This document shows, one piece after another, positions 13,622 to 47,884 of a DNA stretch of 64,000 bases. The notes under the pieces are model-generated. The model made no database searches. It was not told where the DNA came from and saw only the letters and a program-made list of their open reading frames with translations. The position numbers and the translations under genes are program-made. This stretch comes from a virus. The DNA lies in the IMG/VR virus record IMGVR_UViG_3300031857_000002, positions 248,001-312,000 of that record; one strand, 5' to 3'. The stretch's first letter is position 1; the number at the start of each line of letters is the position of its first letter.

Positions 13622-13651
13622 CTTGAACTCCTTTTTAATTACTATACAAGT

Positions 13652-13680
13652 ATTATAGCAAATTGGGATATTTTGGTCAA
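13652..13680 (-). promoter_or_regulatory. repeated promoter cassette, copy 2
   Basis: TTGACC (13680-13675), 17-nt spacer, TATAAT (13657-13652), followed by ACTTGTATAGTAATT and AAGGAG. Drives the four-gene SWIM operon. Confidence 0.9.
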
Positions 13681-14111: not shown

Positions 14112-14141
14112 GTGTCACTCCTTTTTAATTACTATACAAGT

Positions 14142-14170
14142 ATTATAGCAAATGGGGATTTATTGGTCAA
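14142..14170 (-). promoter_or_regulatory. repeated promoter cassette, copy 3
   Basis: TTGACC (14170-14165), 17-nt spacer, TATAAT (14147-14142), then the shared ACTTGTATAGTAATT-AAGGAG leader. The -35 overlaps the stop of the GGCT-like gene. Confidence 0.9.
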
Positions 14171-16291: not shown

Positions 16292-17405
16292 CACCAGTAT
16301 TTTTTTGATCGCTAATCCAGGCAGTGGCCCCTGGAAGATTTTTTTCTATTAGTTTTTTTGATATAGAACTATCTAATATTTGTGCCACTGCTGCCTCTAC
16401 AGGCAGTCTCAGCATTAACTTTAACACATCCAAATCACGTAACAAGGTCCAAGTTAGAGTATTACCTATGTGCCAGTGTTGCCAATCATTTACCAATACA
16501 TTACATATCTCGTAAGCTAACCAACGAGGGTTTGTGGTAGTCAGTGTTGATTCAAATATTTTCTGGTGTTTGGGCAACATAAAATATTCATAGTGCAAAC
16601 AATCAGGATGTGTTTTTAACAGTTCTGGAATACTGGTGCCGCGGCTGGCCAAATACATGTTGGCAGTTACCGGACTTCGCAACATAAATTCATCACCAGG
16701 TGCACCAGACGCTAGTATTGTGGGTTCTAACCAGTGATGTATTTGATTGTATGCCCAAAACTTTTTCAAGTGATGCGAATTGTATTTCCAAAAGTGATCA
16801 TAATCTATGTGAAGATAATCAACTGATTCGACCTCGGCACCTGCACGTTTGAGATAACTATATACCAGCAACGAATCAACCCCGCCTGTTAAAAACGATC
16901 GTATGGGCAAGATATTGTGTTCAATAAAATTCCTAGTTCTGGCCAGTAGTATTTCATCAACTTGATCCAGCACTTGAGATTCAGTCAACAGGGCAAGATC
17001 AAGTGTGCCAATCACATTGAAGTTCCGTAAGGTAACTGCAAGATCCAAGGTAGCCGAAATCACGTTATTGGTCCAGGCAGTGTTGCTCAATGGCACAAGA
17101 TTGGTGATTTCTTTTTGTTGTTCAAACCAGATAGGAAAACTGCGGTACTTGTCTGTTTTAATTTCCAACTGATCTGTGCTGATTGCAATTACACAAAAGT
17201 TCCCCAACAGCTCAGGGCATTGTTGTTGTAATATATCAGGCAGAATCTCTAGCATTGTACCTGATTCGGAATAACCTTTGTACACCACAAACTGATCTCC
17301 CACTATGGTCTGATTCCATCCAGCATCGGTATTGACAGTTATGCCATGCCAACGCCACTGGTGCGAAAAATCTAGATTATCACTGTGGGAGATCGAAAAA
17401 AACAT
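16227..17405 (-). CDS. asparagine-synthetase-like ATP-dependent enzyme lacking the glutaminase nucleophile
   Basis: 392 residues. S-F-L-T-G-G-V-D-S (residues 170-178) is the PP-loop (S-G-G-x-D-S type) of the AsnB synthetase domain and S-G-A-P-G-D-E-F (about 233-240) matches its second conserved motif. The N-terminal 110 residues resemble the glutamine-hydrolase fold (L-L-G-N-F-C-V-I-A-I...R-S-F-P-I-W-F) but there is no Cys at position 2. This is what is seen in beta-lactam synthetases and lasso-peptide cyclases, which adenylate a carboxylate and form an internal amide. The ATG overlaps the ClpP stop by one base (TAATG), so it is coupled to clpP. Reaction here unknown. Confidence 0.8.
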   Translation of the reverse strand: MFFSISHSDNLDFSHQWRWHGITVNTDAGWNQTIVGDQFVVYKGYSESGTMLEILPDILQQQCPELLGNFCVIAISTDQLEIKTDKYRSFPIWFEQQKEITNLVPLSNTAWTNNVISATLDLAVTLRNFNVIGTLDLALLTESQVLDQVDEILLARTRNFIEHNILPIRSFLTGGVDSLLVYSYLKRAGAEVESVDYLHIDYDHFWKYNSHHLKKFWAYNQIHHWLEPTILASGAPGDEFMLRSPVTANMYLASRGTSIPELLKTHPDCLHYEYFMLPKHQKIFESTLTTTNPRWLAYEICNVLVNDWQHWHIGNTLTWTLLRDLDVLKLMLRLPVEAAVAQILDSSISKKLIEKNLPGATAWISDQKNTGAIRKNLTHQLKIHSDLSQLHV

Positions 17406-18028
17406 TATGCTCGCTTTTCCACAATTTTGTCAGCAAGGCCATATGCTACTGCCTGTTCTGCACTGAGGAACGTGTCAAACTTCATGGCTTCATACAGTTC
17501 GTCATAGGTTTTGCCTGCTGTGTTGTGACGCACATACAATTCTGTAAGGCGCTGATTGATGCGTTTTGATTCTTCAAATGTTCTACGAGCATCTTCAAAT
17601 TCAAGTTCTTGCACATGGATTGAGCCACGTGTGCTGGGAGTACCAGAACTCACACGGTGAATCATGGTGCGGCTTTCGGGCAACACAAAACGCTTGCCCG
17701 GAGCACCTGCTTGAGCCAAGAATGACCCCATACTGGCAGCTTGGCCAATAACAATGGTATGAACGTCGGGTTTGATAAACTGCATGGTGTCGTAGATTGC
17801 AAGTCCAGCAGTAACAAGTCCGCCTGGACTGTTTATATATAGCGAAATATCCTTGTCAGGGTCTTCACTTTCGAGGTACAACAATTGGCTTACAATCAAG
17901 CTGGCTGTATGCTCCGAAACTTCTGTGTCCAACATGATAATACGATCTTTGAGCAAGCGACTGTAAATGTCGTAACTGCGCTCACCTTTTGAGGTTTGTT
18001 CAACAACCATTGGGATCAAACTGGGCAT
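17405..18028 (-). CDS. clpP: ATP-dependent Clp protease proteolytic subunit ClpP
   Basis: 207 residues from ATG 18028 (AGGAGA ribosome site), the usual ClpP length; the frame extends upstream but without a ribosome site. Catalytic triad in context: G-Q-A-A-S-M-G-S (S99), M-I-H-R (H124) and F-D-T-F-L-S-A (D185). Also Y-I-N-S-P-G-G and E-R-S-Y-D-I-Y-S-R. It should form the tetradecameric chamber and pair with the ClpX encoded at 40121, which keeps its I-G-F loop. A likely promoter (TTGTAT-N17-TATACT) lies near 18058. Could process phage proteins (for example heads) or degrade host proteins. Confidence 0.96.
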
Positions 18029-18089
18029 AAATTCTCCTGTGTTATGTAATGCTCTGTGATAAGTATAACATAATTCTCTGGGAAATACA

Positions 18090-19349
18090 ATGCGCGACCT
18101 ACTCGATTTACTCAAACTCTACGAAGCACCATCTAACAACTTGCCAAATGTTGATGAAATAGAAGCCTTTAAAAAGATCATTGCTGGCAAAATCAAACAA
18201 CTCCCCGACGATGACAACACTGCCAAGGCACTTCGTGAAATTGAGGACCTGCTTAAACACGTGAATGCCGGGGGAAAAATGGGCATTATCAATGGCGAAC
18301 TGGCCAGTGTCGATGACCCCACTGTGAGTGCGGCACAAAAGGAATTGGCCAGATATATCATGAGCATTGACATGACTCCTGCTGATCGTGATCAATTGTT
18401 TACATTATGGCGCAACAACAAGTTGGTCAAGATTGATCAACTGTTGGGACCTGGCAAAAAGAACTTTAGCGAAATCATCACTGGCTATAAAACAAACCCT
18501 GCTATCCGTGAATTGAGCAATGAACTCATGCGTATCAGTGCTCTAGGACAGGGCAAGGGCGAGTTTGGTCTCAGTGTCATGAGCAAAAGCATCAACAAAC
18601 AAGAAGGCAAGGGCGACCTGAACATCAGTGGACGACCTATTGAAGTCAAAACAACAGATGGCGGTGCAGGTCGATTCACTGACCAGGAAGTGCGCCCAGG
18701 CGCAGGGTTTGATCAGGCAGCTCGTCAACTGAACGCATTTATTAAACAATATCAACCCAACTTGGCCAAGAGTGGTGCCAACCTAGACGGACTTATTGGA
18801 TTTTATGAAGTGTTAAAGACCAACCCTGATCTCAAGGAAGATGCGGCAGCATTACTTGACATGATCAGCAATGTGATTCAAAATATTTTTGAAGGCGAAG
18901 ATATTTCTAAGATTATCAAGGCCATCGAGCGCAGTGATGTAAACGGCGCCAAGCAGGAGTATGCCAAGGCCAACTTCAACTACTACATGAGCAAGAAAAA
19001 AGACGAGGGTGTGTTATACATTAGTTTAGTCAAAGATCCAATCATGACAGTGTTCTTTAAAGATGCTGATGAGTTGGCCGACAGTGGATTGCGCTTGCAT
19101 GCTGGCACGACATACATTACCAGCACTTCGGATGTTCGCTTGCCATATCCGCAGATAGAAATTGTGGATACTACCGGTGGTGCAGGTGCAGGTGATGGCT
19201 CAGCTAACGCAGTCAATCCAGCGGCCTTGAGCAATCAAGATCTTGATGCTGTCAGCACAGGCGGACTACGTGGCCCAGGTGCAAAAAAAGCCCGAGCTCC
19301 AGTAGAACCTGATTTTGATGAGAAAACTACAGGGCGTAGAAAACGTTAA
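18090..19349 (+). CDS. candidate PD-(D/E)XK protein, conserved phage type
   Basis: 419 residues. The N-terminal 150 residues are helical and polar. The centre has [10 protein letters not shown], then [17 protein letters not shown], giving D176, E185 and K187, a typical short-spaced PD-(D/E)XK metal site. After a helical middle, the C-terminus is Gly/Ala/Pro-rich and basic (ends G-R-R-K-R). Possible role: a DNA nuclease or structural nuclease-fold protein. It lies between, and in opposite orientation to, two ClpP genes; its 3' end overlaps the second by 4 nt. Confidence 0.65.
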
Positions 19350-19918
19350 CGAGCCAGTTGGCTGATGTGATCGCAGATGCCTAGTTTCAGTGCTTCTTCG
19401 GCACTCAAATAAACATCATGTGGTGGCAACAGAGTTTTCTTGATCTCTTCTTCACTTAATCCTGTACAAGTCATATAGTGATTGACCATGCGTGTTTGTG
19501 TGAGTCCAAACTCTTTCATTGTGGCCAACAGCTCGTGATGTTTGCCATCACTGCCCCAGGCATACTGATGACTCATGATACTAGTGTTGGGTGTGAGTGT
19601 TCTGCGCCCTGGTGAACCTGCTAGGAATATCAGCAACCCTGCACTGGCAATTTGGCCCAGGCCCACAGTCTTGATGAATATGTTGGAACTCTTCATCACA
19701 TCAATCAAGGCAAAAGCCGCACTCATGTCTCCACCTTCTGAGCAGATCATCAGCAGGAGTTCTTTGCGCTTTTTCTTAGACACAAAGTTTTCATGCAAGA
19801 TCCACTCAATGATGGGTTTGATACTTTCATGGTCTACTTCACCCATAAAAACATACATGCCGTTGTCGGCTAGATCTTGACTGTGAGAGCTTTCGCTTGT
19901 GTTAGTTTCTGTGACCAT
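19346..19918 (-). CDS. divergent ClpP-family serine protease
   Basis: 190 residues with the ClpP fold motifs: M-I-C-S-E-G-G-D (oxyanion loop), G-Q-I-A-S-A-G-L (S92), I-M-S-H-Q-Y (H117) and P-P-H-D-V-Y-L-S-A-E-E-A (D168), so the triad looks complete. It lacks the canonical N-terminal processing region and the E-R-S-Y-D motif. It could form mixed rings with the other ClpP, act as a separate head-maturation type protease, or work without an ATPase. Confidence 0.9.
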   Translation of the reverse strand: MVTETNTSESSHSQDLADNGMYVFMGEVDHESIKPIIEWILHENFVSKKKRKELLLMICSEGGDMSAAFALIDVMKSSNIFIKTVGLGQIASAGLLIFLAGSPGRRTLTPNTSIMSHQYAWGSDGKHHELLATMKEFGLTQTRMVNHYMTCTGLSEEEIKKTLLPPHDVYLSAEEALKLGICDHISQLAR

Positions 19919-21737: not shown

Positions 21738-21974
21738 TTATTCGTCAACTTGATCAATACCAAAATGGCGTCTGACTGCCCGGCTGGTGTTCCAGCCAAT
21801 GTTTTGGAACAGGTTTCGGTCAATCACTGTGGTACATTCTTCTACAATCAACTCGGCGAACTTTTGGTAAGCCTGTTCACATTCTTCGGCACCCATCCAT
21901 TTGGGCCATGGTTCGCCTTTGACGTCCACATACATTCCTGCCTCTTGAGCAAGTTCTTGAATTCGTTTGTTCAT
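21738..21974 (-). CDS. conserved small phage protein
   Basis: 78 residues: N-K-R-I-Q-E-L-A-Q-E-A-G start, central F-A-E-L-I-V-E-E-C and C-terminal V-R-R-H-F-G-I. This layout is shared by a very common small phage protein of unknown function. Overlaps the upstream stop by 4 nt. Last gene of a three-gene operon from the promoter at 22786. Confidence 0.88.
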   Translation of the reverse strand: MNKRIQELAQEAGMYVDVKGEPWPKWMGAEECEQAYQKFAELIVEECTTVIDRNLFQNIGWNTSRAVRRHFGIDQVDE

Positions 21975-22603
21975 GTTCGTTCCTCAATGGAATAAAACCA
22001 ATCATCCCCGGCTGACCACTTGCGTGTGCCATCCACTGTGAATATGGTCTGTGCGGCCTTGAAGTCTGGAAACTTAACATTGCCAGAAATCAAACTTTGA
22101 TCATACCACAAGCATCGATTGTTGGGCTGGCAGGCAAACTGTCCGTTTTCTAATCGAATAAAATTAAAGCTCTTGTGTTCTTCTGCAACTTCGGTAAAAC
22201 CGGTGTCCACATCCATGCCGTCGGCACAAAAGTCCACAGTGAACAAATAGGTTCCGTGATGCCATTCTTTGTCTTTGCCCAGAAACTTCACACCTAGATT
22301 ACGTAGACCTATTTTTTCAATGATAGTGAAACGATAACCCATACAATCCCAAAGCTGTAGGATATCTATGGGTAGATTGCCGGTGTGGTCTTGTTGCCAT
22401 ACATAGGCATGGATTGGCAATTTGTCGTAGAGTGCTCCGTAGTTGGGCAACAAGCTCTCAATACGAAACACTTGTCCACGTAGAGCTTTGAGACTGACCC
22501 AGATGGCGGGTTCAAGTTCTCCATGACCTTGTTCAAAGTTATAGAGAAATTCTCGTTTGACCCAACACTTGATGGGCGGTAATGATCCCACAATGTAACT
22601 CAT
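21971..22603 (-). CDS. conserved T4-like phage hypothetical protein
   Basis: 210 residues. L-P-P-I-K-C-W-V-K-R-E-F-L-Y near the start, L-P-I-H-A-Y-V-W in the first half and Q-P-N-N-R-C-L-W-Y-D in the second are familiar from a protein conserved in T4-like cyanophages. Function unknown; soluble, beta-rich. ATGA overlaps on both sides couple it to its neighbours. Confidence 0.9.
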   Translation of the reverse strand: MSYIVGSLPPIKCWVKREFLYNFEQGHGELEPAIWVSLKALRGQVFRIESLLPNYGALYDKLPIHAYVWQQDHTGNLPIDILQLWDCMGYRFTIIEKIGLRNLGVKFLGKDKEWHHGTYLFTVDFCADGMDVDTGFTEVAEEHKSFNFIRLENGQFACQPNNRCLWYDQSLISGNVKFPDFKAAQTIFTVDGTRKWSAGDDWFYSIEERT

Positions 22604-22752
22604 GCTGTGTCCCGGTTGCGATGTTTGACCTTGCGATTATACACGATCTTGGATTTTTCTGCACGTGATTTGAACGGGGTGTCGCGAGCGTACAACTCCA
22701 CAGCACGTCTGCGCAGTCTAGGTATTTGTAATACTAAAGTTATAGGTTTCAT
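22600..22752 (-). CDS. 50-residue basic protein
   Basis: Very basic: I-P-R-L-R-R-R-A-V-E-L-Y-A-R-D-T-P-F-K and R-K-V-K-H-R-N-R-D. The stop overlaps the next ATG (ATGA), and a consensus promoter lies 34 nt upstream, so it is a convincing short gene. Small basic proteins at this position occur upstream of the same conserved gene in other T4-like phages (from memory). A nucleic-acid-binding role is an inference. Confidence 0.7.
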   Translation of the reverse strand: MKPITLVLQIPRLRRRAVELYARDTPFKSRAEKSKIVYNRKVKHRNRDTA

Positions 22753-22763
22753 GTTTACTTCAT

Positions 22764-22805
22764 AAAAAAATCCGATCCATGCGTTATTATAGCACGAACC
22801 GGATT
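22764..22805 (-). terminator. intrinsic terminator whose loop holds a -10 box
   Basis: In minus-strand RNA, a 14-bp stem (including three G-U pairs) formed by 22805-22792 with 22782-22769, a 9-nt loop and a run of seven U at the 3' base. It ends transcription of the phasin gene. The G-U pairs would be A-C mismatches on the plus strand, so it has been kept for the minus strand. The loop carries TATAAT of the next promoter. Confidence 0.8.
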
Positions 22806-22814
22806 ATGTGTCAA
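22786..22814 (-). promoter_or_regulatory. perfect sigma-70 promoter inside a terminator
   Basis: TTGACA (22814-22809), 17-nt spacer, TATAAT (22791-22786): both hexamers consensus. The -10 is in the loop of the terminator hairpin at 22764-22805, so the new transcript should start in the 3' arm and cannot refold the terminator. Confidence 0.88.
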
Positions 22815-22838: not shown

Positions 22839-23114
22839 TTACTTCTTAGAAGTAGTAGATTGGTAAGCCTTCATGATACCTTCACCAAACTTGGTGTAGT
22901 CAAACTTCATGGCTTCTTGTGAGGCCTTGACCATTTCGCTAGTTAATGTAGCAAATGTATCTGTACCAACTTTGGCAGCTTTCTTTGTGTAAGAGGCTTG
23001 CTCATCAATGAAAGTGTTCATTGCGTCTGCGATTTTTTCGTTTTGGACAAATGTCTTGACAAATTGTTTTTTACCGGTTTGTACGGCGTCGATTGTTGCG
23101 TCTAATGTAAACAT
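22839..23114 (-). CDS. phasin-family protein
   Basis: 91 residues, one amphipathic helical protein without Cys or Trp: V-Q-N-E-K-I-A-D-A-M-N-T-F-I-D-E-Q-A, then S-Y-T-K-K-A-A-K-V-G-T-D-T-F-A-T-L-T and F-D-Y-T-K-F-G-E-G-I-M-K-A. This matches small phasins, which coat polyhydroxyalkanoate granules in the cytoplasm. Strong AGGAG ribosome site. A perfect 9-bp inverted repeat (23189-23207) lies in its promoter region, as expected for a PhaR-type site. Unusual in a phage; a general helical chaperone or scaffold is an alternative. Confidence 0.65.
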   Translation of the reverse strand: MFTLDATIDAVQTGKKQFVKTFVQNEKIADAMNTFIDEQASYTKKAAKVGTDTFATLTSEMVKASQEAMKFDYTKFGEGIMKAYQSTTSKK

Positions 23115-37292: not shown

Positions 37293-38087
37293 ATGATGAA
37301 TTTTAATTTTGACTTAATTTCTGATTTACATATTGAAACCTGGTCTGAAGAAATAGATTGGACCGGCATTGCTACCAGCCCTGTGTGCGTGGTTGTTGGA
37401 GATATATCTAAGGACAGAAATATTGTAACCCGTGTGTTGACCAAACTTGGTCAATGTTATCAAGCTGTATTTTACATAGATGGCAACGACGAGCATCATG
37501 ATTACTTGCATAAACTTGGGTATAGTTACGCTGATCTAGTGAGCCGCGTTAACAACATACCCAATGTAGTTTATTTACAAGACAATGTTGTAGTAATTGA
37601 TGGAGTGGCTATCCTAGGTACCAATGGCTGGTGGGGGTTTGATTTTGATCTAGGAATCGACTATGTCAGCAGCCAAGAATGGTATCGTGAAAAATTTGGC
37701 TTGACTGCAGAAGCAACCCATGCAATATCTCGTATGGCCAACAATGATGCCATGTACATGATCAACTCAGTCAAGAGAATACAAACACACCAAGACGTTA
37801 AAAAGATTGTAATGATTACACATACTGTGCCAGATCCTGTGCTGATTGAACACGATATTGATCTAGAAGGCAAACTAAAGTTCAACACCATGGGCAACAG
37901 ATACATGAAACAGGTGTTAGAAGTTGATACTGAGAAAAAACTACATACCTGGTGTTTTGGACACTATCATGGTTCGATTGATCAAACTCGCAACGGCATC
38001 AGATATGTGAACAACTGTCGCGGCAGGGGTGACACACCTTATGGTAAACATGTGTACTACCCCTTGCGAATCACTGTGAGTTATTGA
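37293..38087 (+). CDS. metallophosphoesterase with variant GND-E-H motif
   Basis: 264 residues. L-I-S-D-L-H-I-E (residues 7-14), V-V-G-D-I-S, then I-D-G-N-D-E-H-H in place of the canonical G-N-H-[DE]; later I-T-H-T-V-P and F-G-H-Y-H-G. The missing His is offset by a following H-H pair, so the metal site may be shifted. Similar enzymes are found in T4-like phages. Substrate unknown. TAAATA lies 15 nt before the start. It converges with clpS by a 7-nt overlap. Confidence 0.88.
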   Translation: MMNFNFDLISDLHIETWSEEIDWTGIATSPVCVVVGDISKDRNIVTRVLTKLGQCYQAVFYIDGNDEHHDYLHKLGYSYADLVSRVNNIPNVVYLQDNVVVIDGVAILGTNGWWGFDFDLGIDYVSSQEWYREKFGLTAEATHAISRMANNDAMYMINSVKRIQTHQDVKKIVMITHTVPDPVLIEHDIDLEGKLKFNTMGNRYMKQVLEVDTEKKLHTWCFGHYHGSIDQTRNGIRYVNNCRGRGDTPYGKHVYYPLRITVSY

Positions 38088-38392
38088 ACAGTATCAGGCT
38101 CTAGCTTGATCTGAAGTGGATAGGCTTGAGCACGAGCACTTATAGTAACCTCAATACCTTTTTGTTCGGCAATCTCATAAGGCAACACAGCAACCACAGC
38201 TGATCCAGCTTCGTGGATGTCTTCGGTAATGGTCAAAGCCGTGTGTTCAGTATAGTTAAAAAATTCTACCAGACTTTCAACCACAAACTCCATGGTGGTT
38301 TGATTGTCGTTGAGATAGATTACCTTGTACATTGGTGGCTCTTTAACCTTTTCAGATGGTTTGATTTTTGTACGTGTATCTGCTTGAGACAT
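38081..38392 (-). CDS. clpS: ClpS-like protease adaptor
   Basis: 103 residues, with a disordered basic N-terminus then the ClpS core: P-P-M-Y-K-V-I-Y-L-N-D-N-Q-T-T-M-E-F-V, D-I-H-E-A-G and K-G-I-E-V-T-I-S-A-R-A. N-D near residue 28-29, Met and the His of D-I-H line the N-degron pocket in known ClpS. ClpS delivers N-end-rule substrates to ClpA, which the window does not encode; it would have to use host ClpAP or a phage-specific partner. Second gene after a 2OG oxygenase. Confidence 0.93.
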   Translation of the reverse strand: MSQADTRTKIKPSEKVKEPPMYKVIYLNDNQTTMEFVVESLVEFFNYTEHTALTITEDIHEAGSAVVAVLPYEIAEQKGIEVTISARAQAYPLQIKLEPDTVQ

Positions 38393-39121: not shown

Positions 39122-39580
39122 TTAGGAAGTGTATGTGATAGCAATAGTCTTTGGCTTGGCTTCTTCAGGTATTTCACGCTTTAGGTGAATGCTTAGGATA
39201 CCAAGTTCAAGATGTGCTCCGGTAATTTCCACATGGTCCGCTAGTTGGAATTCTCTACGGAAACTACGCTCACTGATTCCTTTGTGCAGGTATTTTGCAG
39301 TCGAATCTTCATTCTCCACAGTTTCACGACTGTGCTTGCCTTCAATAACCAAGATTTTTTTATCCTTGGTCACTGACAGATTGTCGTAGCCAAAACCAGC
39401 CACAGCCACGCTGATCATGTACTCGTCATCATTGACTTGTACAATATCATAAGGTGGATAGTTTGTTGAGCTTTGTTGAGCATTTACACGCATGAGTTCA
39501 TCAAACATGTTATCAAACCCGATACCAAATTTGGTGAGTGCGGGAATGTCGAAAGAGCGAAGGGTGAGAGTTTTTGTCAT
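39122..39580 (-). CDS. small heat shock protein Hsp20/IbpA
   Basis: 152 residues. Alpha-crystallin domain: Y-P-P-Y-D-I-V-Q-V-N-D-D-E-Y, V-A-V-A-G-F-G-Y-D-N-L, K-Y-L-H-K-G-I-S-E-R-S-F-R-R-E-F and the C-terminal G-I-L-S-I-H-L-K-R-E-I-P with I-x-I tail motif (I-A-I). Holdase chaperone; T4-like cyanophages carry similar genes. It has its own strong promoter and a 5' leader with a ROSE-like anti-Shine-Dalgarno hairpin (39588-39604), pointing to heat-responsive translation. Confidence 0.95.
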   Translation of the reverse strand: MTKTLTLRSFDIPALTKFGIGFDNMFDELMRVNAQQSSTNYPPYDIVQVNDDEYMISVAVAGFGYDNLSVTKDKKILVIEGKHSRETVENEDSTAKYLHKGISERSFRREFQLADHVEITGAHLELGILSIHLKREIPEEAKPKTIAITYTS

Positions 39581-40120: not shown

Positions 40121-41311
40121 TTAGAGCTCCTTAGGACTATTTACCAGGGCTTGATCAATATCTACGTGCTTAATTCCGTCTGTGCGATAACGTGCTAGAT
40201 TGTACATGTGCGGCAACAACACACGTTCTAGTTCTGAATGCAGGCCACGAGCGCCTGTTTTGTTTTTGATTGTGCGTTCTGCAATGAGATCCAGGCTGTC
40301 TGCAGTAAACTCAAGGTCAACTTCGTCTTGCTTGAACAACCACTGGTACTGACTTATGTAATTGTGCTTGACTTCATTAAGGATACGTACCAGGGCTGTT
40401 TTATCCAGCTCTTTGAGCGCAACCCAAGCAGGGAAGCGACCTACAAATTCTGGGATTAATCCAAATCGCACTAGGTCATCTGGCGTGGTCTTTGACAGGT
40501 GTAACTGCCCGTCTGTTTTGCTAGAAACTTCTGCACCAAATCCAATGTTGGTGCCTTGCACACGACTCTTGACAATGTTGTCTAGTCCAACAAATGCACC
40601 GCCTGCAATGAACAAGATGTTTGTGGTGTCAATTTCAATAGTGTCGCCCGACGGGTGTTTTCTGCCACCAGTGGGCATGACTCTACACTTGGTGCCTTCT
40701 ACCAGTTTGAGCAAGGCTTGTTGTACGCCCTCGCCTGACACATCTCTTGTGATACTGGTGCCTTCGCTCTTACGAGAGATCTTGTCAATCTCGTCCACAA
40801 ACACAATACCACGTTGTGTTTTGTCAACATCGCCGCCCGCGGCAGCATACAATCGACTGATCAAACTTTCAACATCATCGCCCACATAGCCTGCTTCTGT
40901 TAGGCTAGTAGCATCTGCAATCACAAATGGCACATCTAAATAACGTGCCACAGTTTTGGCCAGTAATGTTTTGCCTGACCCTGTTGGACCAAGCATGAGA
41001 ATGTTAGCTTTTTCAATTTCAGTGTTAGGGTCTTTGTTACGAATGCGTTTGTAGTGATTGGCAATGGCCACACTCAGCAACATCTTGGCATCGTCTTGTC
41101 CAATCACATATTGATCCAAATGCTTTCGAATTTCTCTTGGATCAAGATTGGGCGAAGCATCTGATATTTCAGGTTTATCTACCAACAGTGTTTGGCACAA
41201 GTCCACACACTCATTGCATATTGCAACACCTTCACCCACAATGAGTTTAGTCACTGTGTCTTTGTGTTTGTTACAAAAACTACAGGTGTCAAGATTATCG
41301 GATGTTTTCAT
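40121..41311 (-). CDS. clpX: ATP-dependent Clp protease ATPase subunit ClpX
   Basis: 396 residues, close to bacterial length (about 424). N-terminal zinc-binding domain C10-x-x-C13...C32-x-x-C35; Walker A G-P-T-G-S-G-K-T; pore loop G-Y-V-G; Walker [10 protein letters not shown]; the I-G-F loop that docks on ClpP is intact (N-I-G-F-G-A); sensor 2 T-G-A-R-G-L. So it should unfold substrates and feed ClpP, either the phage ClpP at 17405 or the host one. Overlaps the upstream membrane-protein gene by 4 nt; followed by S21. Confidence 0.97.
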
Positions 41312-47044: not shown

Positions 47045-47073
47045 TTCAGGCTCCTTTTAGTTACTATACAAGT

Positions 47074-47102
47074 ATTATAGCAAAATGGGATTTATTGGTC
47101 AA
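47074..47102 (-). promoter_or_regulatory. repeated promoter cassette, copy 5
   Basis: TTGACC (47102-47097), 17-nt spacer, TATAAT (47079-47074), then ACTTGTATAGTAACTAAAAGG. The -35 to start-codon block is nearly identical to copies 6 and 7. Confidence 0.9.
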
Positions 47103-47495: not shown

Positions 47496-47524
47496 TGTTG
47501 GCTCCTTTTAGTTACTATACAAGT

Positions 47525-47553
47525 ATTATAGCAAAATGGGATTTATTGGTCAA
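47525..47553 (-). promoter_or_regulatory. repeated promoter cassette, copy 6
   Basis: TTGACC (47553-47548), 17-nt spacer, TATAAT (47530-47525), then ACTTGTATAGTAACTAAAAGG. The -35 overlaps the stop of the 91-residue gene. Confidence 0.9.
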
Positions 47554-47825: not shown

Positions 47826-47855
47826 TGCTAACTCCTTTTTAATTACTATACAAGT

Positions 47856-47884
47856 ATTATAGCAAAATGGGATTTATTGGTCAA
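47856..47884 (-). promoter_or_regulatory. repeated promoter cassette, copy 7
   Basis: TTGACC (47884-47879), 17-nt spacer, TATAAT (47861-47856), then ACTTGTATAGTAATT and AAGGAG. Placed immediately after the terminator of the structural operon. Confidence 0.9.

Follow-up and report, generated by a model that had tools for sequence, protein, structure and literature searches.

A putative terminator hairpin that encloses a consensus promoter recurs at gene junctions in phage genomes

The promoter early stem-loops (PeSLs) of T4-like phages, reportedly described in RB49 by Arbiol in 2010 and by Comeau in 2014, join a stem-loop terminator to a strong early sigma-70 promoter at the junction of genes or modules, and as repeated cassettes they are said to drive module shuffling by recombination. 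The virion RNA polymerase of phage N4 reads promoters that are small hairpins of single-stranded DNA. In T4, the early read-through RNA of gene e folds over its start region and late promoters located in the 5' strand of the hairpin yield an open RNA; the hairpins of soc, 49 and I-TevI likewise have a promoter in the DNA of the 5' strand, and the new RNA lacks that strand (PMC3014915). Here we describe an element found in a 64,000-nt stretch of viral DNA (the window, positions 248001-312000 of the 320,175-bp record IMGVR_UViG_3300031857_000002), in which a strong sigma-70 promoter and an intrinsic terminator would share sequence, the promoter's 17-nt spacer doubling as the terminator's 5' arm. 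By its sequence, this element would combine a PeSL-type cassette with a hairpin of the T4 gene e type.

On the minus strand the element reads TTGACA, CAT, AATCCGGTTCGTGC, TATAATAAC, GCATGGATCGGATT, TTTTT, ATG (Table 1). Its hexamers match the sigma-70 consensus at 12/12 positions and are separated by 17 nt (CATAATCCGGTTCGTGC), within the 16-18 nt that define a TTGACA/TATAAT promoter, and a TG one base upstream of the -10 box provides an extended -10. As the original prediction had stated, the promoter is nested in a minus-strand stem of 14 pairs (AATCCGGTTCGTGC/GCATGGATCGGATT), three of them G-U; this stable RNA stem is followed by a run of seven T, which is the form of an intrinsic terminator. 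The prediction had also equated the loop with TATAAT and let the -35 box overlap the base of the upstream arm. TATAAT does lie in the loop, which is however 9 nt long, and three nucleotides (CAT) separate the -35 box from the arm. The predicted U7 is present, but two of its bases sit in the stem, so that the structure can be counted as 14 bp with U5 or as 12 bp with U7.

The predicted fold of the minus-strand RNA has an energy of -19.1 kcal/mol (z -4.8), and when the spacer alone was shuffled (n=20,000), an equal or lower fold energy was reached in 8 cases. The plus-strand RNA folds weakly (-8.8, z -1.3) and has no U tract after the stem, so the terminator would work in one direction, in agreement with the prediction. 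A start near 22779, also predicted, falls within the range given by the distance from the -10 box, and RNA from the nested promoter would hold the 3' arm only and thus no stem. As far as sequence can tell, the nested element is not a chance arrangement, and it is not unique.

Looking for the same element in related phages, a check proposed with the original prediction, recovered it in 14 distinct sequences at the phasin-like locus (the window included), in 35 regions of the dnaJ type and in RB49. At the phasin-like locus it follows the 91-aa gene or comes one to two small genes further on. In 11 other relatives, a separate terminator followed by TTGAC-17-TATAAT occupies the same place (read by eye; Table 1). 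Among the 14 nested copies, 95.3% of the cells are paired and both sides have changed in 12 cells, versus 3.8 in shuffles; the covariation score is 0.229 and drops to at most 0.065 when the register is slid by 1-3 columns. The stem is kept by compensatory change and TATAAT and TTGAC are kept in sequence, in the same copies, all 14 of which also retain GGATTTTT. This double conservation bears on whether only one half of the element is real, so that either the promoter-like loop of a terminator is inert or a promoter has acquired its hairpin by chance. Consensus matches by themselves are no proof of function, and the 10-kb stretch around the element holds as many promoter-like sites as its shuffles do. 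Nevertheless, with both parts kept together and with spacer shuffles seldom matching the observed fold, we regard such a coincidence as very improbable.

The mismatches bear on which nucleic acid does the pairing. The non-Watson-Crick cells of the 14 copies comprise 20 G-U, 3 A-C and 6 others, and this large excess of G-U over A-C is what would be expected if the RNA of this strand does the pairing. The inverted repeat could instead be a DNA dyad, serving as operator or cruciform for a regulator at the -10 box with no RNA structure involved; dyads around the -10 are typical of operators, and small dyads without U tracts are present at other promoters of the window phage. Such a dyad would not account for the G-U:A-C ratio (20:3 here and 13:1 in the dnaJ family described below), for arm sequences that are free to vary as long as pairing is kept, or for a U tract that always lies on the transcript's 3' side. 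We rejected the operator idea on the ratio and find it hardly credible.

A second nested copy occupies 198278-198223 of the same record. The stop of the 72-aa gene on one side touches its -35 box, and on the other side the ATG of dnaJ comes after the T7 run. Relatives of this dnaJ provided 35 distinct upstream regions with the same plan and widely different arms, with pairs such as TCCTGTA/TACAGGA, CCCTGTA/TACAGGG, GACAGTA/TGCTGTC and CCCAGTA/TACTGGG. Over the nine loop-proximal pairs, the cells are Watson-Crick in 301 cases, G-U in 13 and A-C in 1. All four Watson-Crick types occur at one position, and five pair types at another. This covariation is direct evidence that the hairpin around the -10 box is under selection. 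As a separate observation, the dnaJ genes of other phages (L195, L196, L222, L227 and L230) have their ATG just 7-9 nt past TATAAT, with a short palindrome (AGTATAATTACT) and no terminator; their mRNA is probably leaderless.

We also scanned viral contigs for promoters that have GGATTTTT or T7ATG downstream at the distance of a hairpin, with shuffled spacers as the control. Stems of at least 11 spanning pairs were found in 53/124 and in 29/95 of the matches listed, versus 12.4 and 6.5 expected (largest value in the shuffles 16 and 11, respectively). In the nested matches listed, the upstream same-strand frame ends just ahead of the -35 box, and 1 of 45 overlaps the element, by 4 nt; among the non-nested matches listed, such a frame overlaps the element in 29/80. 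The genes that come after nested elements include metallophosphoesterases, a MazG-like protein and a small KSNAVPV protein, as identified by eye, with further support for MazG.

Many copies carry translation signals in the 3' arm. In the T7ATG set, bases resembling a Shine-Dalgarno sequence occur there in 21/27 nested versus 9/60 non-nested cases among the matches listed. Four diverged small lipoproteins (52-58% identity to the first) have their ATG inside the arm, 5-6 nt past the -10 box; arm and U tract code for the first residues, M(N/S)(R/K)(I/V)F, and with its ATG at about +1 the mRNA would be leaderless. In the window copy, the AUG in the 3' arm opens a frame of only 6 codons, and a GGA precedes a frame of 2 codons. 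Together with the T4 precedent (PMC3014915), these signals would suit a hairpin that acts in translation only, as at gene e, where the stem masks the ribosome-binding site in read-through RNA, the U run is a spacer and little termination takes place. We consider this unlikely, because the U tract is kept where the Shine-Dalgarno sequence lies past it (L034, L037, L040) and where the arm has none (TGCTGTCTGC type), as is GGATTTTT throughout the phasin-locus set, and because in related phages this site is occupied by a plain terminator. With the Shine-Dalgarno sequence beyond the U tract in some copies, the terminator is what all copies share. At L005:6337 and L007:6007, a 24-codon frame (MNWIFLGCKQT...) opens within the 3' arm, near +1, and overlaps, as ATGA, the start of the following gene; it is possibly a leader peptide with translational coupling.

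RB49 holds one nested copy (TTGACA, TAC, AAGGGAGATTCTC, TATAAT, GGGAGTCTCCCTT, TTCTTTT), around positions 3203-3150, between gene 39 and RB49p005, with a 13-bp stem and a loop that consists of TATAAT alone. Five other Krischvirus records that we inspected carry this copy unchanged, and in JSE a different gene lies upstream of it. The parts of RB49 that were read contain at least eight tandem cassettes besides. In these the terminator lies wholly before the -35 box (8/8), unlike in the window element, where a single hairpin contains the -10 box and takes one of its arms from the spacer. The window element does share with PeSLs the pairing of a stem-loop terminator with a strong early sigma-70 promoter at a gene junction. 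Its neighbours differ from one relative to another. As in the N4 promoters, a hairpin overlaps the promoter; unlike them, the element has sigma-70 hexamers and a long, U-tailed hairpin. It follows the T4 hairpins in having its promoter in the DNA of the 5' strand, but these are translational and use late promoters (PMC3014915), whereas here a U-tract terminator is combined with a consensus sigma-70 promoter. The record of Krischvirus GEC-3S (HE978309) annotates two overlapping features with this architecture, a promoter and a terminator, at the junction that follows gene 39 in RB49, and we found no discussion or test of the overlap. RB49 early promoters have been confirmed as a class by 5'-end mapping, and the nested one is not named among them (PMC1524935). 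An exact-phrase literature search for a promoter in a terminator returned no paper, the primary PeSL papers being outside this comparison. PeSL cassettes and gene-e hairpins are each known, and judging by these comparisons we did not find their fusion in one covarying hairpin across many phages described.

The anatomy, conservation, covariation, strand specificity and recurrence of the element, as well as its exchange with separate terminator-promoter pairs, were established directly. The covariation, the kept hexamers and the 11 separate pairs are best read as the original prediction had it: one element would stop the upstream transcript and start the next operon. We consider it likely that this is a nested terminator-promoter and that, in read-through RNA, it often masks translation signals as well. 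Polymerase coming from the upstream gene would make both arms, the hairpin would form and the RNA would be released at the Us. Polymerase initiating at the nested promoter, whose -10 box is in the loop or at its edge, would make the 3' arm as its first transcribed bases and then the U tract; with one arm no hairpin would form, and the next operon would be transcribed. The 3' arm of many copies would bear a Shine-Dalgarno sequence, spaced from the AUG by the U tract, or an AUG at about +1, and with these signals inside the arm any read-through RNA would be translated poorly too. We infer the actual 3' and 5' RNA ends, the termination efficiency and the translational masking from the sequences.

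This geometry is natural because the 17-nt spacer is the only part of a strong promoter whose sequence is nearly free, and its length just suffices for an arm. A spacer usually taken as low-information would here be under pairing constraint. About 50 bp would do both the stopping and the starting, and often provide a ribosome-binding site or a start codon with the first signal-peptide codons, where a tandem layout needs 70-80 bp or more. Programs that look for genes, for promoters or for terminators would each detect just a part of such an element.

Several points weigh against the nested terminator-promoter. Polymerase has to cross the promoter before it terminates, so a tandem layout would protect the promoter better. 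The score of 12/12 refers to the sigma-70 consensus and not to the host's own RNA polymerase. The dnaJ set was gathered by its TATAAT motif, so that the constant TATAAT there follows from how the set was selected, and the counts from the viral scans, which hold among the matches listed, give no prevalence.

A doubtful extension is polymerase recycling, in which the enzyme would remain on the DNA after release at the U tract and restart at the perfect promoter within about 30 bp. One polymerase would then travel down the genome making separate RNAs. In vitro, E. coli polymerase has been shown to diffuse along after termination and to reinitiate at promoters close by (PMC6978380, PMC6978322). 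The RB49 copy, in an ordinary laboratory phage with an E. coli host, makes the element testable, including the on-the-spot restart of terminated polymerase.

In bacterial genomes, a stricter pattern gave 13 matches, a tiny sample in which hairpins numbered 2 versus 1.1 expected, with no excess. A DNA search of the window region against named phages found cyanophage matches only, to the second downstream gene, and queries with the short element gave no convincing relatives among named phages. Among named phages, the annotation upstream of most mazG and KSNAVPV genes leaves no room for the element, and the sole upstream region read in this check, that of ACP17, lacks it. The same test found no nested copy in the parts of T4 that were read or in part of Syn9, and Rfam holds no family matching the element.

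The stop codon of the upstream 91-aa gene lies 24 nt ahead of the -35 box. The name phasin given to it originally is weakly supported: the window protein itself scores under the curated cut-off, and Phasin_2 matches 7/16 members of the family, with a best E of 8e-4. Across the record, 37/38 TTGACN-17-TATAAT sites are on one strand.

Table 1. Positions of the element, its neighbours and other features (window coordinates unless a contig is named)
Feature	Position	Strand	Basis or remark
-35 hexamer TTGACA	22809..22814	-	sequence and promoter match
-10 hexamer TATAAT, within hairpin loop	22786..22791	-	sequence and promoter match
Stem 5' arm AATCCGGTTCGTGC, within promoter spacer (last 14 nt)	22792..22805	-	fold; covariation
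Stem 3' arm GCATGGATCGGATT, holds predicted transcription start 22780-22778	22769..22782	-	fold; start from -10 distance
Hairpin loop TATAATAAC, 9 nt	22783..22791	-	fold
T7 run (U tract); first two T are the last two stem pairs	22764..22770	-	sequence
Upstream gene, 91 aa, phasin-like (weak)	22839..23114	-	44 viral contigs encode relatives
Next operon gene 1, 50-codon frame, family ...RRRAVELY...	22603..22752	-	sequence
Next operon gene 2, 210 aa, phrog_3704; start overlaps gene 1 stop	21971..22603	-	
42-bp promoter cassettes TTGACCAATAAATCCCATTTTGCTATAATACTTGTATAGTAA	2811-2852, 13639-13680, 14129-14170, 47061-47102, 47512-47553, 47843-47884	-	
Proteolysis-set genes (ClpP, ClpP-like, ClpX-, ClpS-, Hsp20-like)	17405-18115, 19346-19918, 40121-41311, 38081-38392, 39122-39580		
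Small lipoprotein family (MNRIFLL...GC...)	L004:6327-6566, L010:6329-6541, L414:1001-1240, L415:1001-1210		
Relatives with separate terminator and promoter	L012, L016, L017, L019, L021, L022 (weak -35), L023, L027, L032, L042, L043		

Other promoters of the window phage also have dyads. On the minus strand, a 42-bp promoter cassette (TTGACCAATAAATCCCATTTTGCTATAATACTTGTATAGTAA) occurs six times in nearly identical form, with 0-3 mismatches, where chance alone would give no copy. Its -10 box lies within a small dyad (TTGCTATA/TATAGTAA) that has no U tract; at least two of the cassettes come after a terminator, and in sequence they look like PeSL-type repeats. At 43366-43338, on the minus strand, a perfect promoter has its -10 box between the palindromic arms GATCATG/CATGATC, again with no U tract; this may be an operator or a hairpin that acts in translation only. 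Finally, the phage encodes in the window a ClpP that matches Pfam CLP_protease, along with a second ClpP-like protein and ClpX-, ClpS- and Hsp20-like proteins recognized by eye from their translations; apart from the Pfam-matched ClpP, it is thus by eye that this proteolysis set appears unusually full.
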